From the NCBI GenBank assembly GCA_017630455.1, contig JAGBVG010000085.1, positions 1-64,000 of the forward strand: DNA of 64,000 bases, written 5' to 3'. The position numbers were made by a program, and so were the translations under genes. Within the stretch, counting starts at the first letter, position 1, and every line of letters starts with the position of its first letter. The notes below the pieces were generated by a model. That model worked only from the letters and a program-made list of their open reading frames with translations, was not told the DNA's origin and did not search any database. The stretch is from Alistipes sp. (GTDB lineage Bacteria; Bacteroidota; Bacteroidia; Bacteroidales; Rikenellaceae). Shown here in pieces: positions 7,816-59,030 of this stretch.

Positions 7816-7845
7816 CAAAGTTAGCAAAAAATATTTAGATATCAA
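7816..7845 (-). promoter_or_regulatory. Promoter of pyrF-pyrE-pyrB
   Basis: TTG (7843-7845), 19 nt, TAACTTTG (7816-7823) on the minus strand. The expected start near 7809 gives a leader of about 55 nt. Confidence 0.7.
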
Positions 7846-7887
7846 CACCCAAAACACGATTTGTTGCAAAGATACCCCACTACATAA

Positions 7888-22999: not shown

Positions 23000-23030
23000 C
23001 AAAGGTAGCAAACTTCTTGGAAAATAGCAA
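23000..23030 (-). promoter_or_regulatory. Promoter of the nucleotidyltransferase gene
   Basis: TTG (23028-23030), 20 nt, TACCTTTG (23000-23007) on the minus strand, back to back with the repeat promoters at 23039-23155 on the other strand. Confidence 0.68.
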
Positions 23031-23038
23031 TACAACCA

Positions 23039-23155
23039 TTGAAATCTCAATACTATTTTGTATCTTTGGCATCATTAGATGCGTCTATTACAGGAGTCTC
23101 TTTGCAAAAACCACCCTCTCAAGTGTTGAAATCTCAATACTATTTTGTATCTTTG
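23039..23155 (+). repeat. 87-nt promoter repeat, locus 1 (two promoters, before the M23 gene)
   Basis: Promoter copy 1: TTG 23039-23041, 19 nt, TATCTTTG 23061-23068. Copy 2: TTG 23126-23128, 19 nt, TATCTTTG 23148-23155. The period is 87 nt. Between them lie the palindrome GCATC-ATTA-GATGC (23069-23082), a variable centre and CCTCTCAAGTGTTG. The proximal promoter would start transcription about 14 nt before the ATG of the next gene. Same family as 29625-29804, 33817-33911 and 57674-57855. Confidence 0.85.
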
Positions 23156-28728: not shown

Positions 28729-29601
28729 TTATTTTGGTTGTAGGAACATTACGGTCTTACCAAACTCATAGAGCGGCAATATGCGACAAGCGATAACCTC
28801 TCCGCCGAACGCCACCTTCACCTCTGCATTATTTGCATAGCGATAGGCCACAGTGCCCTTGATATCGCTCTCGGGGTAGTTCATATCGGATGGTGTGATG
28901 GTCACGAGGATGATATCTCCCGTGAGGTCGTTAGTAGCCACAAGACCCTGCTCGGCACTGAAACGCGCCACAACTGTTGTAGGCTGCTCGGCACTTACAG
29001 GGATGATATATCGCTGCGACTCGGTAGATATGCTGCGCTTGCCATAGAAAAGCTCGAGATACTCCCTCTCGAGACGTGAAATTTCGGCAAGAGCGCTCTC
29101 AAGACCACCGCCATAGACGCCCTCGCCAAACTCACCTGTGATGAGATCGAGGCGTGCGCGGCGAAGTGAAAGAATCTGCTCCGCGGCAACCTTTGCAGCA
29201 GCCTCAGGGGTACGCTCAGCACCCGAGATACGATCTACGGGCAATGGCGACTCACCCATATATACCGGAGCGTTGTGGTCAGGTCGCTCATCATCAGAGA
29301 CATAGTGCGTAGGCTCCTCGATGATTGCCACATCGGCCTCCACGATGCGGTACTCATCACGCTCGACAAGCGAAGCACGTGTACCGAGTAGCTTCTGCGC
29401 ATAGCGGGCATAAACACCTGGCGTGAAGATCTCGTGCTCCACCACCACATCTACGGCGAGGGTTGTGGATGCCTCGGCGATAACCACATTACCACTCTCC
29501 TTATACGAACCTATACGCTTCTTGACAATATGCTGTGCCGAAGCATCGACACTTATGGCAACAGCCGCAACAGCGACCAATAGTTTGAATACTCCTTTCA
29601 T
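28729..29601 (-). CDS. DUF4831 family exported protein
   Basis: 290 residues from the ATG at 29599-29601 with a signal peptide (MKGVFKLLVAVAAVAISVDASAQ). The family hallmark EHEIFTPGVYARYAQKLLG is followed by a RIVEADVAIIEEPTHYV strand. DUF4831 proteins are confined to Bacteroidota and uncharacterised. A longer reading from 29700 would run through the promoter repeat and is rejected. Transcription is expected from one or both promoters in the repeat, the nearer starting about 17 nt before the ATG. Confidence 0.82.
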   Translation of the reverse strand: MKGVFKLLVAVAAVAISVDASAQHIVKKRIGSYKESGNVVIAEASTTLAVDVVVEHEIFTPGVYARYAQKLLGTRASLVERDEYRIVEADVAIIEEPTHYVSDDERPDHNAPVYMGESPLPVDRISGAERTPEAAAKVAAEQILSLRRARLDLITGEFGEGVYGGGLESALAEISRLEREYLELFYGKRSISTESQRYIIPVSAEQPTTVVARFSAEQGLVATNDLTGDIILVTITPSDMNYPESDIKGTVAYRYANNAEVKVAFGGEVIACRILPLYEFGKTVMFLQPK

Positions 29602-29624
29602 AAACTCAATTTTATATAATTTCA

Positions 29625-29804
29625 CAAAGATACGAAATAGTATTGAGATTCCAACACTTGAGAGGATTGATTTTGTTAAAGCTTCTTGTAGTAGGCGCAT
29701 CTAATGATGCCAAAGATACGAAATAGTATTGAGATTCCAACACTTGAGAGGATTGATTTTGTTAGAGTTTCTTATAGTAGGCGCATCTAATGATGCCAAA
29801 GATA
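29625..29804 (-). repeat. 86-nt promoter repeat, locus 2 (two full units plus a -7 remnant)
   Basis: Minus-strand promoters at 29625-29654 and 29711-29740, each TTG-N19-TATCTTTG, and a third TATCTTTG at 29797-29804 without a TTG at the right distance. Period 86 nt. The two units are nearly identical and each contains GCATC-ATTA-GATGC and CCTCTCAAGTGTTGG. They fill the space between trmN6 and the DUF4831 gene. Confidence 0.88.
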
Positions 29805-33376: not shown

Positions 33377-33790
33377 TTAATCTATCGGCTCGTAGCTCTC
33401 TATCACTGGCAAAGCTCCCACGGCTACGATATCGACATTATTCATACGCGACGCCAAAGCCTGCTGCAACGAGGTGTTGGTGATGTGACGGTATGTACGA
33501 CCGAGGGTGTCGGTAACCTCCTTGTCGAAGCTAAGCTCCCCAACCTGCACAACAAAACGGCTGCGCGACGTTGAGAGGGTGTAACCAACCAAGTCGGTAC
33601 CCTTACCGCGAATGGTGCAATGCACGTCATACTCCTTCTCGTCAATCACTACCACTACGTTGTGGTCGGTGGTGTATGTACCACCCAACTTTGTGATGTA
33701 CCACAATACGAATGCCGCAAAGAGAAGTGACACGTATACTGGCGACACATAGCTACGAAGTAGTGCAAAAAATGCCTTAATCTTTCCCAT
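33377..33790 (-). CDS. YbbR/CdaR-like single-pass membrane protein
   Basis: 137 residues with one N-terminal membrane helix (about 17-33) after a positive start, followed by a small beta domain. In Bacteroidota a YbbR-like protein is regularly encoded next to coaE; in Firmicutes YbbR (CdaR) regulates the diadenylate cyclase, but that partner is not seen here. Only a weak family match can be made by eye. First gene of the operon to trmN6, with its start 27 nt downstream of the repeat promoter. Confidence 0.65.
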   Translation of the reverse strand: MGKIKAFFALLRSYVSPVYVSLLFAAFVLWYITKLGGTYTTDHNVVVVIDEKEYDVHCTIRGKGTDLVGYTLSTSRSRFVVQVGELSFDKEVTDTLGRTYRHITNTSLQQALASRMNNVDIVAVGALPVIESYEPID

Positions 33791-33816: not shown

Positions 33817-33911
33817 CAAAGATACGAATTTGTATTGAGATTACAACACTTGAGCTGCTCGATTTTGTGATTTGCGACCTGCGGTAGTCGCATCTAATGA
33901 TGCCAAAGATA
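33817..33911 (-). repeat. 87-nt promoter repeat, locus 3 (single unit)
   Basis: Promoter TTG 33844-33846, 19 nt, TATCTTTG 33817-33824 on the minus strand, then GCTCAAGTGTTG, a variable centre, GCATC-ATTA-GATGC and a second TATCTTTG at 33904-33911. The distance between -7 elements is 87 nt. It drives the YbbR-like/coaE/folP operon. Confidence 0.82.
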
Positions 33912-55076: not shown

Positions 55077-55203
55077 GAAGTCGTATAATAAGAGTTAGTT
55101 TTAGGCGCGCGAAGTACGAAAAAGCGGAGTTTACTTAAGCGTAAATGAGCATTTTGAGTATGAGCGCAACGCCAAAATAACCTTGTTAGACGGCTTCGCT
55201 ACA
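55077..55203 (-). repeat. Family C element, complete copy (at the DPP-IV stop codon)
   Basis: The minus strand starts with the stop codon: TAGCGAAGCCGTCTAACAAGG, and ends TTATACGACTTCTG. The interior holds AGCGGAGTTTACTTAAGCG and TGAGCATTTTGAGT, shared with 42797-42911. The end pieces joined give the mini copy at pyrD. Confidence 0.65.
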
Positions 55204-57631
55204 AATCGTTATTAAGTTGTGGGATATCTGTTGTTCTCTCGCGCTCACCAAGGAGGTGCTCCGAGAAGTAATCCGCCATACGCCAGAAGAAGTACTCGTT
55301 CATATCACCGAAGCCGTGACGCTGGCCAGGCAACAAGAGCATATCGAAGCGCTTATTAGCACGAATCAAGGCATCGACAACACGGAGTGTACAGCCAGGG
55401 TGTACATTCTCGTCGATATCGCCGTGAACGAGGAGGAGGTTACCCTTGAGGCGCTCTGCGAGTTCGTGGTTAGCAGAGATGTGGTACTCGAAGATGGTCT
55501 CGCCATCCTTCTCAACCTCGCGGATACCGTGGTGCTTCTCGCTCCACCAACGGTTGTAGATGTTGTTATCGTGGTTACCGGCGCAAGATACCGCAACATC
55601 GAAGAAGTCGGGGTACATAAGGATAGCGGCGGTAGACATAAAGCCACCACCCGAGTGGCCGTGAATACCTACGCGAGAGATATCAATAAAGCTGTGGCGT
55701 GCTGCGAGCTGCTGTGCTGCAACAACCTTATCCTTCAAACCGTAGTCACGCAAGTTACCGTAGCCATAGTTGTGATACCACTTAGAGCGGTCTGGGTGGC
55801 CACCACGGTTACCAACGGTGATGACGATGAAGCCCATCTGCGCGAGGCGATCTGTACGCACCTGAGGACGGTACCACGACTGCTCCACAGCCTCGGTCTG
55901 AGGACCTGGGTAAACGTACTCGATGATAGGATACTTCTTCGATGGATCGAAGTCGTAAGGCTTATACATAACGCCGTGGATGTCGGTGATGCCATCGGCA
56001 GCCTTCACAACAAAGCGCTCAGGATATGTGTAGCCCATAGCGAAGAGAGGCTCGAGGTCTACGCTCTCCAGAGCCATAACGCGCTTACCTTCAGTGGTAT
56101 ATAGCTCTGAAACTGGAGCTGCGTCGACGCGAGAGTAGGTCGTTGTGAAATAGCGGCGGTCGTCAGAGAGCGAGAACTCACCATTGAAGCCCGCAGGATC
56201 GAGCTGCTTGAGACCTGTACCGTCGTAGTTCACGCGGAAGAGGTGCAAGTAGTAAGGGTTCTCATCCTTGTTGTAGCCCGTAGCGGTGAAGTAGATAACA
56301 CGCTTAGCATCGTCAGCACCAAGAACATTCGACACGTGCCACTCGCCCTTGGTGATAGCATTGAGGAGGTTACCCTCAGCATCGTAGCGGTAGAGGTGCG
56401 CCCAGCCGGTACGCTCCGACCACTGTATAATCTCCGTGTCGTTAGAGACAAGCGTAGGCATCTGCCACTCGATAGAGGTGTTCATCTCCTCGACGATGAG
56501 ATCCTTAGCCGTAGCCGAGGCTACATCGACAACGCAGAGGTCAGCACGCTGGATATCGCGGCTCTGGCGGATAACATAGAACTTAGAGTTATCACCCATC
56601 CACACAGCGCGCATAGGACGCTGGTAGCGGTCGGCATTTGTGCGAGCCTTAGGGGCTACGAAGAGCATCTGCTCCTTATACTTTGGCATATCCACCACGC
56701 GGCGCTCCATCTTCTCGGCATCGAACAACTCGAGAGTAAACTCTGGGCTCTCCTCGCCAGGCATCTGATACTTATATGTAAAGAGCTCTGGGCGTGGCTT
56801 GAGCACGTTGATAACCCAGAAATCCTTGAGCATCGCGGTGTTGCAACGCACGGTAGCAAAGTGCTTAGAGTCTGGCGACCACTGCAAGAAGACCTGGTAG
56901 CGCTCATCAGCCTTAATCTGCTCGATGCAATCCTCAAACCAGTGGTATGCGGTGTGCTCCGTAGCGTCGAAAGTGATCTGGTGCTCCACGATGGTGGTAT
57001 CCTTAGAATCCTTAGCCAGCTTCTCGACATCCTCCATAGACATATACCAGAGGTTGTAGTTCTTCTCATAAACGGCAATCTTGCCATCTGGCGATACGTT
57101 AGCCCAGCGTGGGATGCGTGCCTCACGCTCCTCAACCTCGGTCAGCTCCTGCTTCTTGATATCCCACTGGAAGTGGAATGTGAGAGGCTTACCCTCCTCG
57201 TCCTTTGGTGCATAGTCGTTGTTCTCGACCATAACCTTAGCAGGCATAACATCGAACAACACGAGGTTATCCTCCTTAAGCTGAATGTTGTCGATAGGTA
57301 GGTGCTGAGCATCGAAAGGATATCCCGTTACGAGGGTTATCTTCTCCGCAAGGTCGCTCATAGCCCACATCTCGCTCTTCTTGCCCGATGCAGGGTCTAC
57401 AACATAGTAGTGGATATCATCCACACTCTGCCACGAATACCAGAACTTATTGCTCTTCTCGTACCACGCAGGGCGCACAGATGTCTGAGGCACCACGCGG
57501 CGCATCTTGTTTGGTGAAAAACGCTCCGCCAACTCATAATTTGGCGATGCTGCAGGCTCTTCGGCCTTGAGAGTTGCCGCAGTAGAGAGTGTCGCCACAG
57601 CAGCAAGGATCAGTGTTAGGTGTTTAATCAT
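55199..57631 (-). CDS. Dipeptidyl-peptidase IV family serine protease (S9B)
   Basis: Exported peptidase that removes N-terminal X-Pro dipeptides. Signal peptide MIKHLTLILAAVATLSTAATLKA, then the N-terminal beta-propeller (about 40-540) and the alpha/beta hydrolase domain with the catalytic Ser in GIHGHSGGGFMST, Asp in LLVHGDIDENVHP and His in LPGQRHGFGDM. 810 residues, as in other Bacteroidota. Probably periplasmic, feeding amino acids from host or dietary peptides. Two copies of the promoter repeat precede it. Confidence 0.93.
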   Translation of the reverse strand: MIKHLTLILAAVATLSTAATLKAEEPAASPNYELAERFSPNKMRRVVPQTSVRPAWYEKSNKFWYSWQSVDDIHYYVVDPASGKKSEMWAMSDLAEKITLVTGYPFDAQHLPIDNIQLKEDNLVLFDVMPAKVMVENNDYAPKDEEGKPLTFHFQWDIKKQELTEVEEREARIPRWANVSPDGKIAVYEKNYNLWYMSMEDVEKLAKDSKDTTIVEHQITFDATEHTAYHWFEDCIEQIKADERYQVFLQWSPDSKHFATVRCNTAMLKDFWVINVLKPRPELFTYKYQMPGEESPEFTLELFDAEKMERRVVDMPKYKEQMLFVAPKARTNADRYQRPMRAVWMGDNSKFYVIRQSRDIQRADLCVVDVASATAKDLIVEEMNTSIEWQMPTLVSNDTEIIQWSERTGWAHLYRYDAEGNLLNAITKGEWHVSNVLGADDAKRVIYFTATGYNKDENPYYLHLFRVNYDGTGLKQLDPAGFNGEFSLSDDRRYFTTTYSRVDAAPVSELYTTEGKRVMALESVDLEPLFAMGYTYPERFVVKAADGITDIHGVMYKPYDFDPSKKYPIIEYVYPGPQTEAVEQSWYRPQVRTDRLAQMGFIVITVGNRGGHPDRSKWYHNYGYGNLRDYGLKDKVVAAQQLAARHSFIDISRVGIHGHSGGGFMSTAAILMYPDFFDVAVSCAGNHDNNIYNRWWSEKHHGIREVEKDGETIFEYHISANHELAERLKGNLLLVHGDIDENVHPGCTLRVVDALIRANKRFDMLLLPGQRHGFGDMNEYFFWRMADYFSEHLLGERERTTDIPQLNNDL

Positions 57632-57673
57632 TTTGTTTTATGGTTTTATTCGTTGTTTCACATCATTTCAGTG

Positions 57674-57855
57674 CAAAGATACAAAAATGTCACGAGATTT
57701 CACCACTTGAAAGGAGGGTTTTTGTGATGACCATATTGTGATAGACGCATCTTATGATGCCAAAGATACAAAAATGTCACGAGATTTTACCACTTGAAAG
57801 GAGGGTTTTTGTGATGACCATATTGTGATAGACGCATCTTATGATGCCAAAGATA
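57674..57855 (-). repeat. 87-nt promoter repeat, locus 4 (two nearly identical units, before DPP-IV)
   Basis: TATCTTTG occurs at 57674-57681, 57761-57768 and 57848-57855 on the minus strand, spaced exactly 87 nt. The two units differ by only one base. Each holds GCATC-ATAA-GATGC and CTTTCAAGTGGT. The -33 position reads GTG or GTA rather than TTG, so these promoters may be weaker than at the other three loci. The gene-free stretch 57632-58040 otherwise contains only the hairpin at 57966-57995. Confidence 0.88.
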
Positions 57856-57965
57856 CAAAAAAAGAGAAGAGAGGAGAAACTGAATCGAAATATTTTTTGA
57901 TTTACGGACCAAGCATAAAGGCGCCTTACTGCCATTTATAGGCTCGTAGAGCGTCTCTAAACAGC

Positions 57966-57995
57966 GAACGTGTCCGCTATATTGCAGACACGTTC
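57966..57995. terminator. Hairpin downstream of the membrane protein gene
   Basis: GAACGTGTC, 12-nt loop, GACACGTTC; no T-run, so only a possible terminator. Confidence 0.4.
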
Positions 57996-58040
57996 ATATC
58001 CTGACAATTCAAAACCTGATAGTCAGATCAGATAGTAGTA

Positions 58041-58661
58041 TTATTTCTCGTAAAAAGTATCACCATCATCATTGGTTCTGTACTCCTTTCCACTTGAGCC
58101 TCTGTAGTAACTCTCGCCACATATACCCTTCTCCTCAGTCACCTCATCACCATTATCGAGTCTCCATCTTCTCTTTCCGTCTGGGAAAAGCACTGTGAAA
58201 CCCAACCACAAGCAGATCAAAGCTACAACTATATAGAACGATATGATGATAAGTCCGATGAGAATATATATGGGAGCAAGTATCACCAAACCACCAAAGA
58301 GGAATCCCAGGATAACCTGCAGGCAATACCACCACTTACGACCCTGAATGAAAGGCAATCGCTTCTTAAGATACAACGTGATGTAGATAACTGGAAGAGC
58401 TAAGCTCAGGAGGGAAGATATGACAAATAAAAAACTCTCATCAATACCCTTCTCCATAAAGATAGGCGCCAGCACGCCAAAGCATAGTAGAGATGCAAGG
58501 AAATTCACTACCATAGCTGCAAAGTGATAAATCAGGGCATTCATCGCCAACTTTGACTTATACTCTGGATTGAACTTCTGCAAGAAGTTCTCCTCACACT
58601 CGTTAATTTTGCAAAAGATCTTCTTTGGCAATCTCCAAAGGAAAAGGAAAAGTCTCTTCAT
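58041..58661 (-). CDS. Hypothetical membrane protein
   Basis: 206 residues, not recognised. A basic amphipathic N-terminus (MKRLFLFLWRLPKKIFCKIN) is followed by four hydrophobic segments (about 42-62, 78-96, 112-132, 134-156) and a hydrophilic cytoplasmic or periplasmic tail with DGKRRWRLDNGDEVTEEKG and a Gly/Ser/Tyr-rich stretch. Monocistronic, with a good promoter 150 nt upstream. No motif allows a function to be named. Confidence 0.7.
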   Translation of the reverse strand: MKRLFLFLWRLPKKIFCKINECEENFLQKFNPEYKSKLAMNALIYHFAAMVVNFLASLLCFGVLAPIFMEKGIDESFLFVISSLLSLALPVIYITLYLKKRLPFIQGRKWWYCLQVILGFLFGGLVILAPIYILIGLIIISFYIVVALICLWLGFTVLFPDGKRRWRLDNGDEVTEEKGICGESYYRGSSGKEYRTNDDGDTFYEK

Positions 58662-58841: not shown

Positions 58842-58947
58842 CTCCCCGTCGAATTTTTGACGGGTAGAGCCACAAGCTACTCCCATAGCGGCAAACATCT
58901 ATACTCCGCCCCACCCTGCCCCACCCCACACGCACACCCGCGTGGAA

Positions 58948-58977
58948 GAGACACTCGCGATAGAGACACTCGCGATA
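58948..58977. repeat. 15-nt tandem direct repeat
   Basis: GAGACACTCGCGATA twice in a row. Too short to assign a role. Confidence 0.6.
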
Positions 58978-59030
58978 GATAGACTTACGGCAAACACCAT
59001 AGCGGCAGACACCGAGAATACGCAATAACA

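Follow-up and report, generated by a model that had tools for sequence, protein, structure and literature searches.

Introduction

Integron gene cassettes form head-to-tail arrays through insertion at a short shared site, and their recombination end is structured. Sharing of promoters between genes has been proposed mostly from similar sequences. The term “mobile promoter” appears in the part of PMC4596501 consulted here, where BrickBuilt of Porphyromonas gingivalis is suggested to be such an element. It is described as MITE-like, with terminal inverted repeats and 23-nt internal repeats, and its promoter activity was shown in a reporter (PMC4596501). The consensus given for sigma-ABfr in the consulted part of PMC7366714 is TAnnTTTG at -7 and TTTG at -33.

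The locus described here consists of two tandem 87-nt units before a DPP-IV peptidase gene. It lies in a window, i.e., the whole stretch of 64,000 nt which was analysed. We consider it probable that the units belong to a family of non-autonomous mobile promoter cassettes, 85–93 nt and mostly 87 nt long, which home to -7 boxes. As in putative mobile promoters and promoter propagation, a promoter-bearing sequence is copied to many unrelated genes, but the cassette differs from these by its readable ends, its -7-box target, its empty sites and its stacking into arrays. With BrickBuilt, as far as the consulted part of its description goes, the cassette shares the host group Bacteroidota, the intergenic position, the non-autonomous character and the tandem repeats; it differs in being 87 nt long, without terminal inverted repeats, and situated at -7 boxes. 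The nearest hairpin population is that of the REPINs, which in the consulted part of PMC8049555 are, with their RAYTs, likewise short, hairpin-forming, non-autonomous populations persisting in a lineage. Compared with that part of the description, however, the cassette genomes are without a Y1/RAYT gene, and the cassette has no inverted-REP doublet, has a promoter-shaped end and targets promoters. Integron cassettes are similar in their head-to-tail arrays at a short shared site and in an end whose structure matters, whereas the present unit is gene-less, has no known integrase locus, occupies many scattered sites and is inserted at promoters. To our knowledge no known element has this anatomy, and searches of the open-access literature returned no description of the cassette.

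Results

The array before the DPP-IV gene

Boxes reading CAAAGATA on the plus strand, i.e., TATCTTTG on the minus strand, start at 57674, 57761 and 57848 with a spacing of 87 nt. The two 87-nt units between them are identical at 86 of 87 positions. Self-identity over 87 nt was 0.99 at lag 87, against 0.47 at the best other lag (20–299 nt, region 57401–58100), and TRF gave a score of 369 with a period of 87. The exact spacing and near-identity given in the preliminary description were thus confirmed. A palindrome, GCATC-N4-GATGC, had also been placed directly after a -7 box in each unit. This is correct for both units, where the palindrome lies directly 3' of the two upstream boxes, but not for the gene-proximal box, after which CACTGAAATGATGTG is found instead. 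Both units contain the CTTTCAAGTG block. In gene direction a unit begins with the palindrome, continues with a variable middle holding CTAC.ACA-like and CAAAA-like blocks, and ends with CTC-AAGTG.TG, a 19-nt T-rich spacer and TATCTTTG, according to an alignment of units (A2, described below). The features of the array, all on the minus strand, are:

57848–57855, minus strand: left TATCTTTG box, read by analogy with the native left boxes of other loci as the -7 box of a native promoter entered by the cassette
57761–57847, minus strand: cassette unit 2, upstream, from palindrome to right box, 87 nt (sequence, TRF)
57834–57847, minus strand: left-end palindrome GCATC-N4-GATGC of unit 2, pairing conserved across the cassette family
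57674–57760, minus strand: cassette unit 1, gene-proximal, from palindrome to right box, 87 nt (sequence, TRF)
57747–57760, minus strand: left-end palindrome GCATC-N4-GATGC of unit 1, pairing conserved across the cassette family
57701–57703, minus strand: GTG, spaced N19 from the gene-proximal box; candidate -33 element of the cassette
57674–57681, minus strand: gene-proximal TATCTTTG, candidate active -7 box brought by the cassette, read as a right box from other loci
55199–57631, minus strand: DPP-IV gene (Pfam DPPIV_N, Peptidase_S9), beginning 42 nt downstream of the last box

At this locus the nearest relative, with 95% protein identity in DPP-IV, has a different upstream neighbour and so gives no comparison for the left join. 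An Rfam scan of 57000–58600 was negative at E≤1. At 58947–58979 there are 2.2 copies of a 15-nt unit in perfect tandem (AGAGACACTCGCGAT), apparently unrelated to the cassette.

Distribution of the cassette

Further copies were searched for with two sequence models, R1 from 11 copies and R2 from 86 units of 16 genomes. In the window's own genome, G000 (2.0 Mb in 93 contigs), R1 gave 40 matches at E≤1 and 36 at E≤1e-3. Among the latter, 26 begin at model position 17 or earlier and nine at position 36 or later, comprising the right half only, while the remaining match (29–97) is a complete unit by R2. Seven of 150 sampled genomes of the wider taxonomic family had matches, all of them in the window's own genus (one of 22 genera), and within this genus of gut bacteria, Alistipes or one near it, R2 at E≤1e-4 found matches in 27 of 180 genomes. 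The richest genomes, G000, G130, G140, G173, G205, G239 and G244, have at least 20–23 R2 matches each. Sister genomes differ sharply, with at least 20 matches in G130 against two in G143. Most of the genomes compared are draft MAGs; G000 is estimated to be 7.15% contaminated, and the same cassette family is also present in genomes with 1%.

Individual units were collected by a script which required TTTG with at most one mismatch, a stem with at most one mismatch, and a right TAnnTTTG 73–85 nt further on. A second filter, demanding a 5' arm among eight arms already seen, kept 87 of 126 candidate units. The length was 87 nt in 56 of these 87 and 85 to 93 nt in the rest, 85–93 nt being what the script permitted. 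Alignment A2 comprises 86 units, 85 of them distinct, one 93-nt unit having been excluded.

Three other loci in the window belong to the family:

23061–23155, plus strand: left box plus a single unit, preceding an M23 peptidase gene (Pfam), from sequence
29625–29804, minus strand: left box and two units before a DUF4831 gene (Pfam), from sequence and TRF
33817–33911, minus strand: left box and one unit before ORF 33377–33790, beside secDF, from sequence

The dispersed family proposed in the preliminary description is real, including its loci at 23.0, 29.6 and 33.8 kb, and a promoter-like end of the unit is well supported by sequence; the genome search which had been advised yielded many more copies. 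A right-half piece lies at 23010–23068, just upstream of the 23.0-kb copy. The longest ORF of the DUF4831 gene (28729–29700, minus strand) begins within the array; translation more likely starts about 23 nt downstream of the last box, which gives 290 aa. At 7816–7874 on the minus strand there is a weak family match (41 bits, R2) with TTGATATCTAAATATTTTTTGC before TAACTTTG and without the palindrome. This stretch and L205, the counterpart in G236 of locus L035, look like decayed cassette promoters, and some weak matches may thus be ordinary promoters.

Several other forms were encountered. Contigs 6 and 42 of G173 (loci L147 and L150) carry an identical two-unit array with identical printed flanks, which is either a real duplication or an assembly effect. 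At L158 (G095) and at L165 and L166 (G140), a box and palindrome stand right before the gene and the second box is absent; they are either cassette fragments that keep just the left end or palindromes with another origin. L161 in G244, the counterpart of L067 in G130, has a box, the palindrome GCATCGTAACGATGC, approximately 20 nt and then TATATTTG, and looks like a cassette shortened by internal deletion. Carriage by phages was rejected. A first pattern found no viral contigs and a second pattern found one, taken as a chance match, in which the matching 19 nt do not follow a -7 box and no second box occurs in the 261 nt read. A match in Hyphomicrobiaceae (L040) was likewise taken as chance, on the pattern match alone.

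Empty sites and the origin of the boxes

The DUF4831 locus, with its conserved upstream neighbour, has two units in G000 and one unit in each of G164, G210 and G130. In the other 22 orthologues read, TAnnTTTG occurs once and units are absent, and R2 run on the 30 fetched loci found units in four, some of them fragmentary. An empty and a filled site with common flanks read as follows:

G143, empty: ..aaaaagtgag-TATCTTTG-tcgaaataacc..
G130, filled: ..aaaaagtgag-TATCTTTG-(79 nt)-TACCTTTG-tcaaaataacc..

For DPP-IV, R2 units (E<0.1) were found in one of 30 orthologous loci, the window's own, and TAnnTTTG stands close before the start codon in 24 of the other 26 orthologues printed. Orthologues of further filled loci were retrieved with two composite queries. 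Both flanks were homologous in a cassette-free relative at ten of 16 filled loci (16 of 27 comparisons), and these ten provide the empty sites in relatives which are expected of a mobile promoter. Their upstream 50-nt identity was 0.74–1.00, in each case higher than the best of 100 random placements for that locus (0.51–0.81). The join was exact at an intact box in eight of the ten (DUF4831, L062, L064, L066, L067, L071, L072 and L009), in the order native upstream flank with TAnnTTTG, palindrome to second TAnnTTTG, native downstream flank; at the remaining two, L069 and L026, the left box was altered. In the other six of the 16 loci the homologous upstream flank or the box was missing in the relative. 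The upstream flank had diverged in five, with L061 (0.62–0.67) barely above its null, and at L023 the box was not found in relatives. Some loci were viewed only, outside the count of 16, namely L070 and, in G000, L014, L019, L029, L034, L035, L038 and the 33.8-kb locus; they were left out because their upstream flanks were non-homologous or, for L035, because the relative also has a cassette-like promoter. L187 was not placeable, and L012, L021, L022 and L027 of G000 had no counterpart in the two relatives searched. Neither an excised form of the cassette nor an insertion within a species was seen in the genomes compared.

The two boxes of a filled site could be told apart at three clean loci, and in all three the left box equals the native box of the relative and the right box differs. 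DUF4831 has native TATC with left TATC and right TACC, L064 has native TATC with left TATC and right TAAC, and L066 has native TATA with left TATA and right TATC. L024 agrees (native TACC, left TACC, right TATC), but its upstream flank has diverged. L069 is an exception (native TACT, left TGCC, right TACC); the stretch before its left box resembles the end of a unit, so an earlier unit may have been lost there. L067 and L072 are ambiguous, since the two relatives of each differ in the box. From a native left box together with a different right box we conclude that insertion takes place directly behind TTTG and that the cassette supplies a box of its own. As it brings its own promoter end, it does not create an ordinary target-site duplication, and the identical duplication on both sides expected of a MITE of a DDE transposon was absent at the three clean informative loci. 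The difference might still derive from an old duplication that has since mutated. Terminal inverted repeats, the other mark of a MITE, were not seen by eye in A2, where the left end is GCATCATAATGATGC and the right end ..CTTTTTNN-TAnnTTTG. Judged from these alignments, the unit has been inserted precisely at a -7 box that was already there, a point missed in the preliminary description, and the palindrome would thus be the left end of the element.

The palindrome

In the 85 distinct rows, changes on both sides were present at four of the six pairs, in 19 cells. None of 500 shuffles reached this count or the observed values of three other covariation measures, while for another one, the number of further pair types, 25 of 500 shuffles did so. 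When the partner was slid by 1–3 columns, at most two cells with changes on both sides were left. The stems used include GCATC/GATGC, GCGTC/GACGC, GTATC/GATAC, ACATC/GATGT, CCATC/GATGG and CCGTC/GACGG; G000 by itself contains the first three, each with perfect pairing. Paired cells make up 98.1%, a figure inflated by the way units were collected, with at most one stem mismatch tolerated and a 5' arm from the set of eight demanded. Pairing which is kept while the letters change suggests that the palindrome is recognised by its shape.

Transcription starts a few nt after a -7 box. Since the left box is followed at once by the palindrome, transcripts initiated from this box should begin inside the palindrome, which would place its role at the DNA level. 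An RNA hairpin at the 5' end of the transcript was for this reason rejected as the main role. Some copies persist with the promoter half alone, suggesting that the palindrome matters more for movement than for expression. Folding of whole units as single-stranded DNA was not uniform, with z from -0.7 to -4.8 in 12 units. A possible second stem joins the middle block to the -33 region, as CATCAC/GTGATG in G000 and GTTACA/TGTAAC in G130. Its score was reached by none of 300 permutations within genomes and by eight of 300 over all units, and this stem is suggestive only.

Promoter features and downstream genes

In the native flanks before left boxes, TTG at N19 was found in 9 of 55 units, compared with 8 of 550 at ten other spacings; this comparison kept 55 of the 87 units and dropped those whose upstream flank ends like the end of another unit. 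The insertion targets thus look like ordinary promoters. Before right boxes, xTG at N19 was present in 64 of 87 units and TTG in 16 of 87. We infer that the right end of the cassette may be an active sigma-ABfr promoter.

After merging of duplicates there were 65 distinct loci. A co-oriented ORF of at least 60 aa begins 4–64 nt (median 26) after the last box in 64 of them, the exception, L146, having none within 100 nt, and a divergent ORF within 100 nt on the other side was present at 28. Release factor 3, lpxB, RidA, an M16 peptidase and a glycosyltransferase are among the genes, as judged by eye from their N-terminal residues. Together with M23 peptidase, DUF4831 and DPP-IV (Pfam) they show no common theme by eye. 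The position before many unrelated genes in the same direction, another mark of a mobile promoter, was found at 64 of 65 loci.

Unit number and similarity

The mean identity of units was 0.92 within the same array, 0.74 between loci of the same genome and 0.64 between genomes. The nearest unit from another locus was in the same genome for 51 of 87 units, whereas shuffling gave a mean of 10.75 and at most 26, kinship of loci being uncontrolled in this comparison. The gene next to secDF (33.8 kb) is preceded by a single unit in G000 and by four in G140, for which orthology was judged by eye; in G164 and G236 it has none. At orthologous sites the number is therefore 0 or 2 for DPP-IV, 0, 1 or 2 for DUF4831, and 0, 1 or 4 for the secDF-adjacent gene. 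The preliminary description had proposed that unit number could change by recombination and had advised a comparison of strains. Variation was seen between species, but not between strains of one species, and recombination between units does not alone explain the first unit at an empty site.

Discussion

The cassette directly follows, on the 3' side, the TAnnTTTG that forms the -7 box of an existing promoter, whereas relatives without the cassette have a single box. The right end of the cassette reads xTG-N19-TAnnTTTG, so that the gene-nearest box comes with the cassette and a promoter-shaped sequence is restored beside the gene. An enzyme acting in trans would recognise the left palindrome, probably as a single-stranded DNA hairpin, and join the cassette after TTTG. 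The right-end promoter could then take over from the native promoter or add to it. The same end may serve again as a target, and later insertions, or recombination between boxes, would give head-to-tail arrays. Searches for the Y1, Y2 and SAM_5 families did not single out a mover. More tentatively, the cassette may represent a gene-less, site-specific promoter-homing element which has a shape-recognised end, enters only after the -7 boxes of working promoters, rebuilds the promoter from its own right end and thereby with low harm, stacks into arrays and is moved by an enzyme of a new kind.

Insertion without a dedicated enzyme is possible, although we regard it as rather unlikely. A nascent strand would switch by microhomology from a native TATCTTTG to the left box of a unit elsewhere, copy 87 nt to the right box and switch back, the palindrome stalling the fork and making the switch likelier. 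Such copying requires no common sequence other than an 8-nt box at either end, a native left box with a unit-derived right box is predicted, as seen, as are arrays, and the left-end-only pieces by genes (L158, L165 and L166) fit a switch which ended early. Template switching alone, however, leaves unexplained both the compensatory changes of the palindrome over many species and the gap in copy number between the sisters G130 (at least 20 matches) and G143 (two), and the use of an 8-nt microhomology twice per event should be rare. A wholly non-mobile regulon, in which promoters sharing a palindrome operator are inherited vertically and homogenised by gene conversion, would agree with the position of 64 of 65 loci directly before genes, with the conserved dyad and with the likeness of units within a genome. 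It is very improbable, and in its strict form refuted, in view of clean empty sites with differences of one or two units. Three perfectly paired stems in one genome are also odd for the operator of one protein, the downstream genes have no common theme by eye, and the nine of 36 matches which start at model position 36 or later persist with the promoter half only, so the palindrome is not needed there.

Known types of movers were also considered. A hairpin element of the IS200/IS605 or REP/RAYT kind, placed 3' of TTTG by a Y1 transposase that works on single-stranded DNA, would suit a short hairpin beside a fixed short target, the lack of terminal inverted repeats and a right end equal to the target. 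Yet Y1_Tnp (PF01797) was found in only one of 180 genomes of the genus, G060, itself without the cassette, while five of 14 control genomes were positive, and the unit has a single clear hairpin, at the left end only. As far as these assemblies go, a Y1 transposase is unlikely as the mover, and we give this mechanism hardly any weight. The search for the Y2 transposase PF04986 was uninformative, as it found none in 180 genomes of the genus and none in 14 control genomes. A circular cassette could instead be integrated by a tyrosine recombinase with a -7-box-like crossover core, as in the CTnDOT integrase, whose core is GTANNTTTGC; an open-access literature search gave no support for this core. 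The box with its neighbours often reads GTANNTTTGC or near to it, and box-unit-box structures and arrays are products expected from site-specific recombination. SAM_5-type integrases (PF13102) occur in eight of nine chosen cassette-rich genomes, but also in 10 of 13 chosen poor or cassette-free ones (18 of 22 overall), and do not discriminate rich from poor genomes. The integrase is missing from G203, which has 13 cassette matches in a genome 81% complete, and no inverted core arms were seen around the box. We consider this route unlikely.

A mobile promoter cassette homing to -7 boxes remains our preferred reading. Its ends, target and empty sites are directly visible in the sequence, with before-and-after pairs supplied by related species. 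Inserted singly or in rows at the core promoter boxes of many unrelated genes, such a tiny mobile part would allow a genome to re-wire gene control. If the right end is active, the cassette would be a natural experiment in the bacterial re-wiring of many genes at once, and would point to a new reaction, by recombination or by copying, which is directed at the -7 box of sigma-ABfr.
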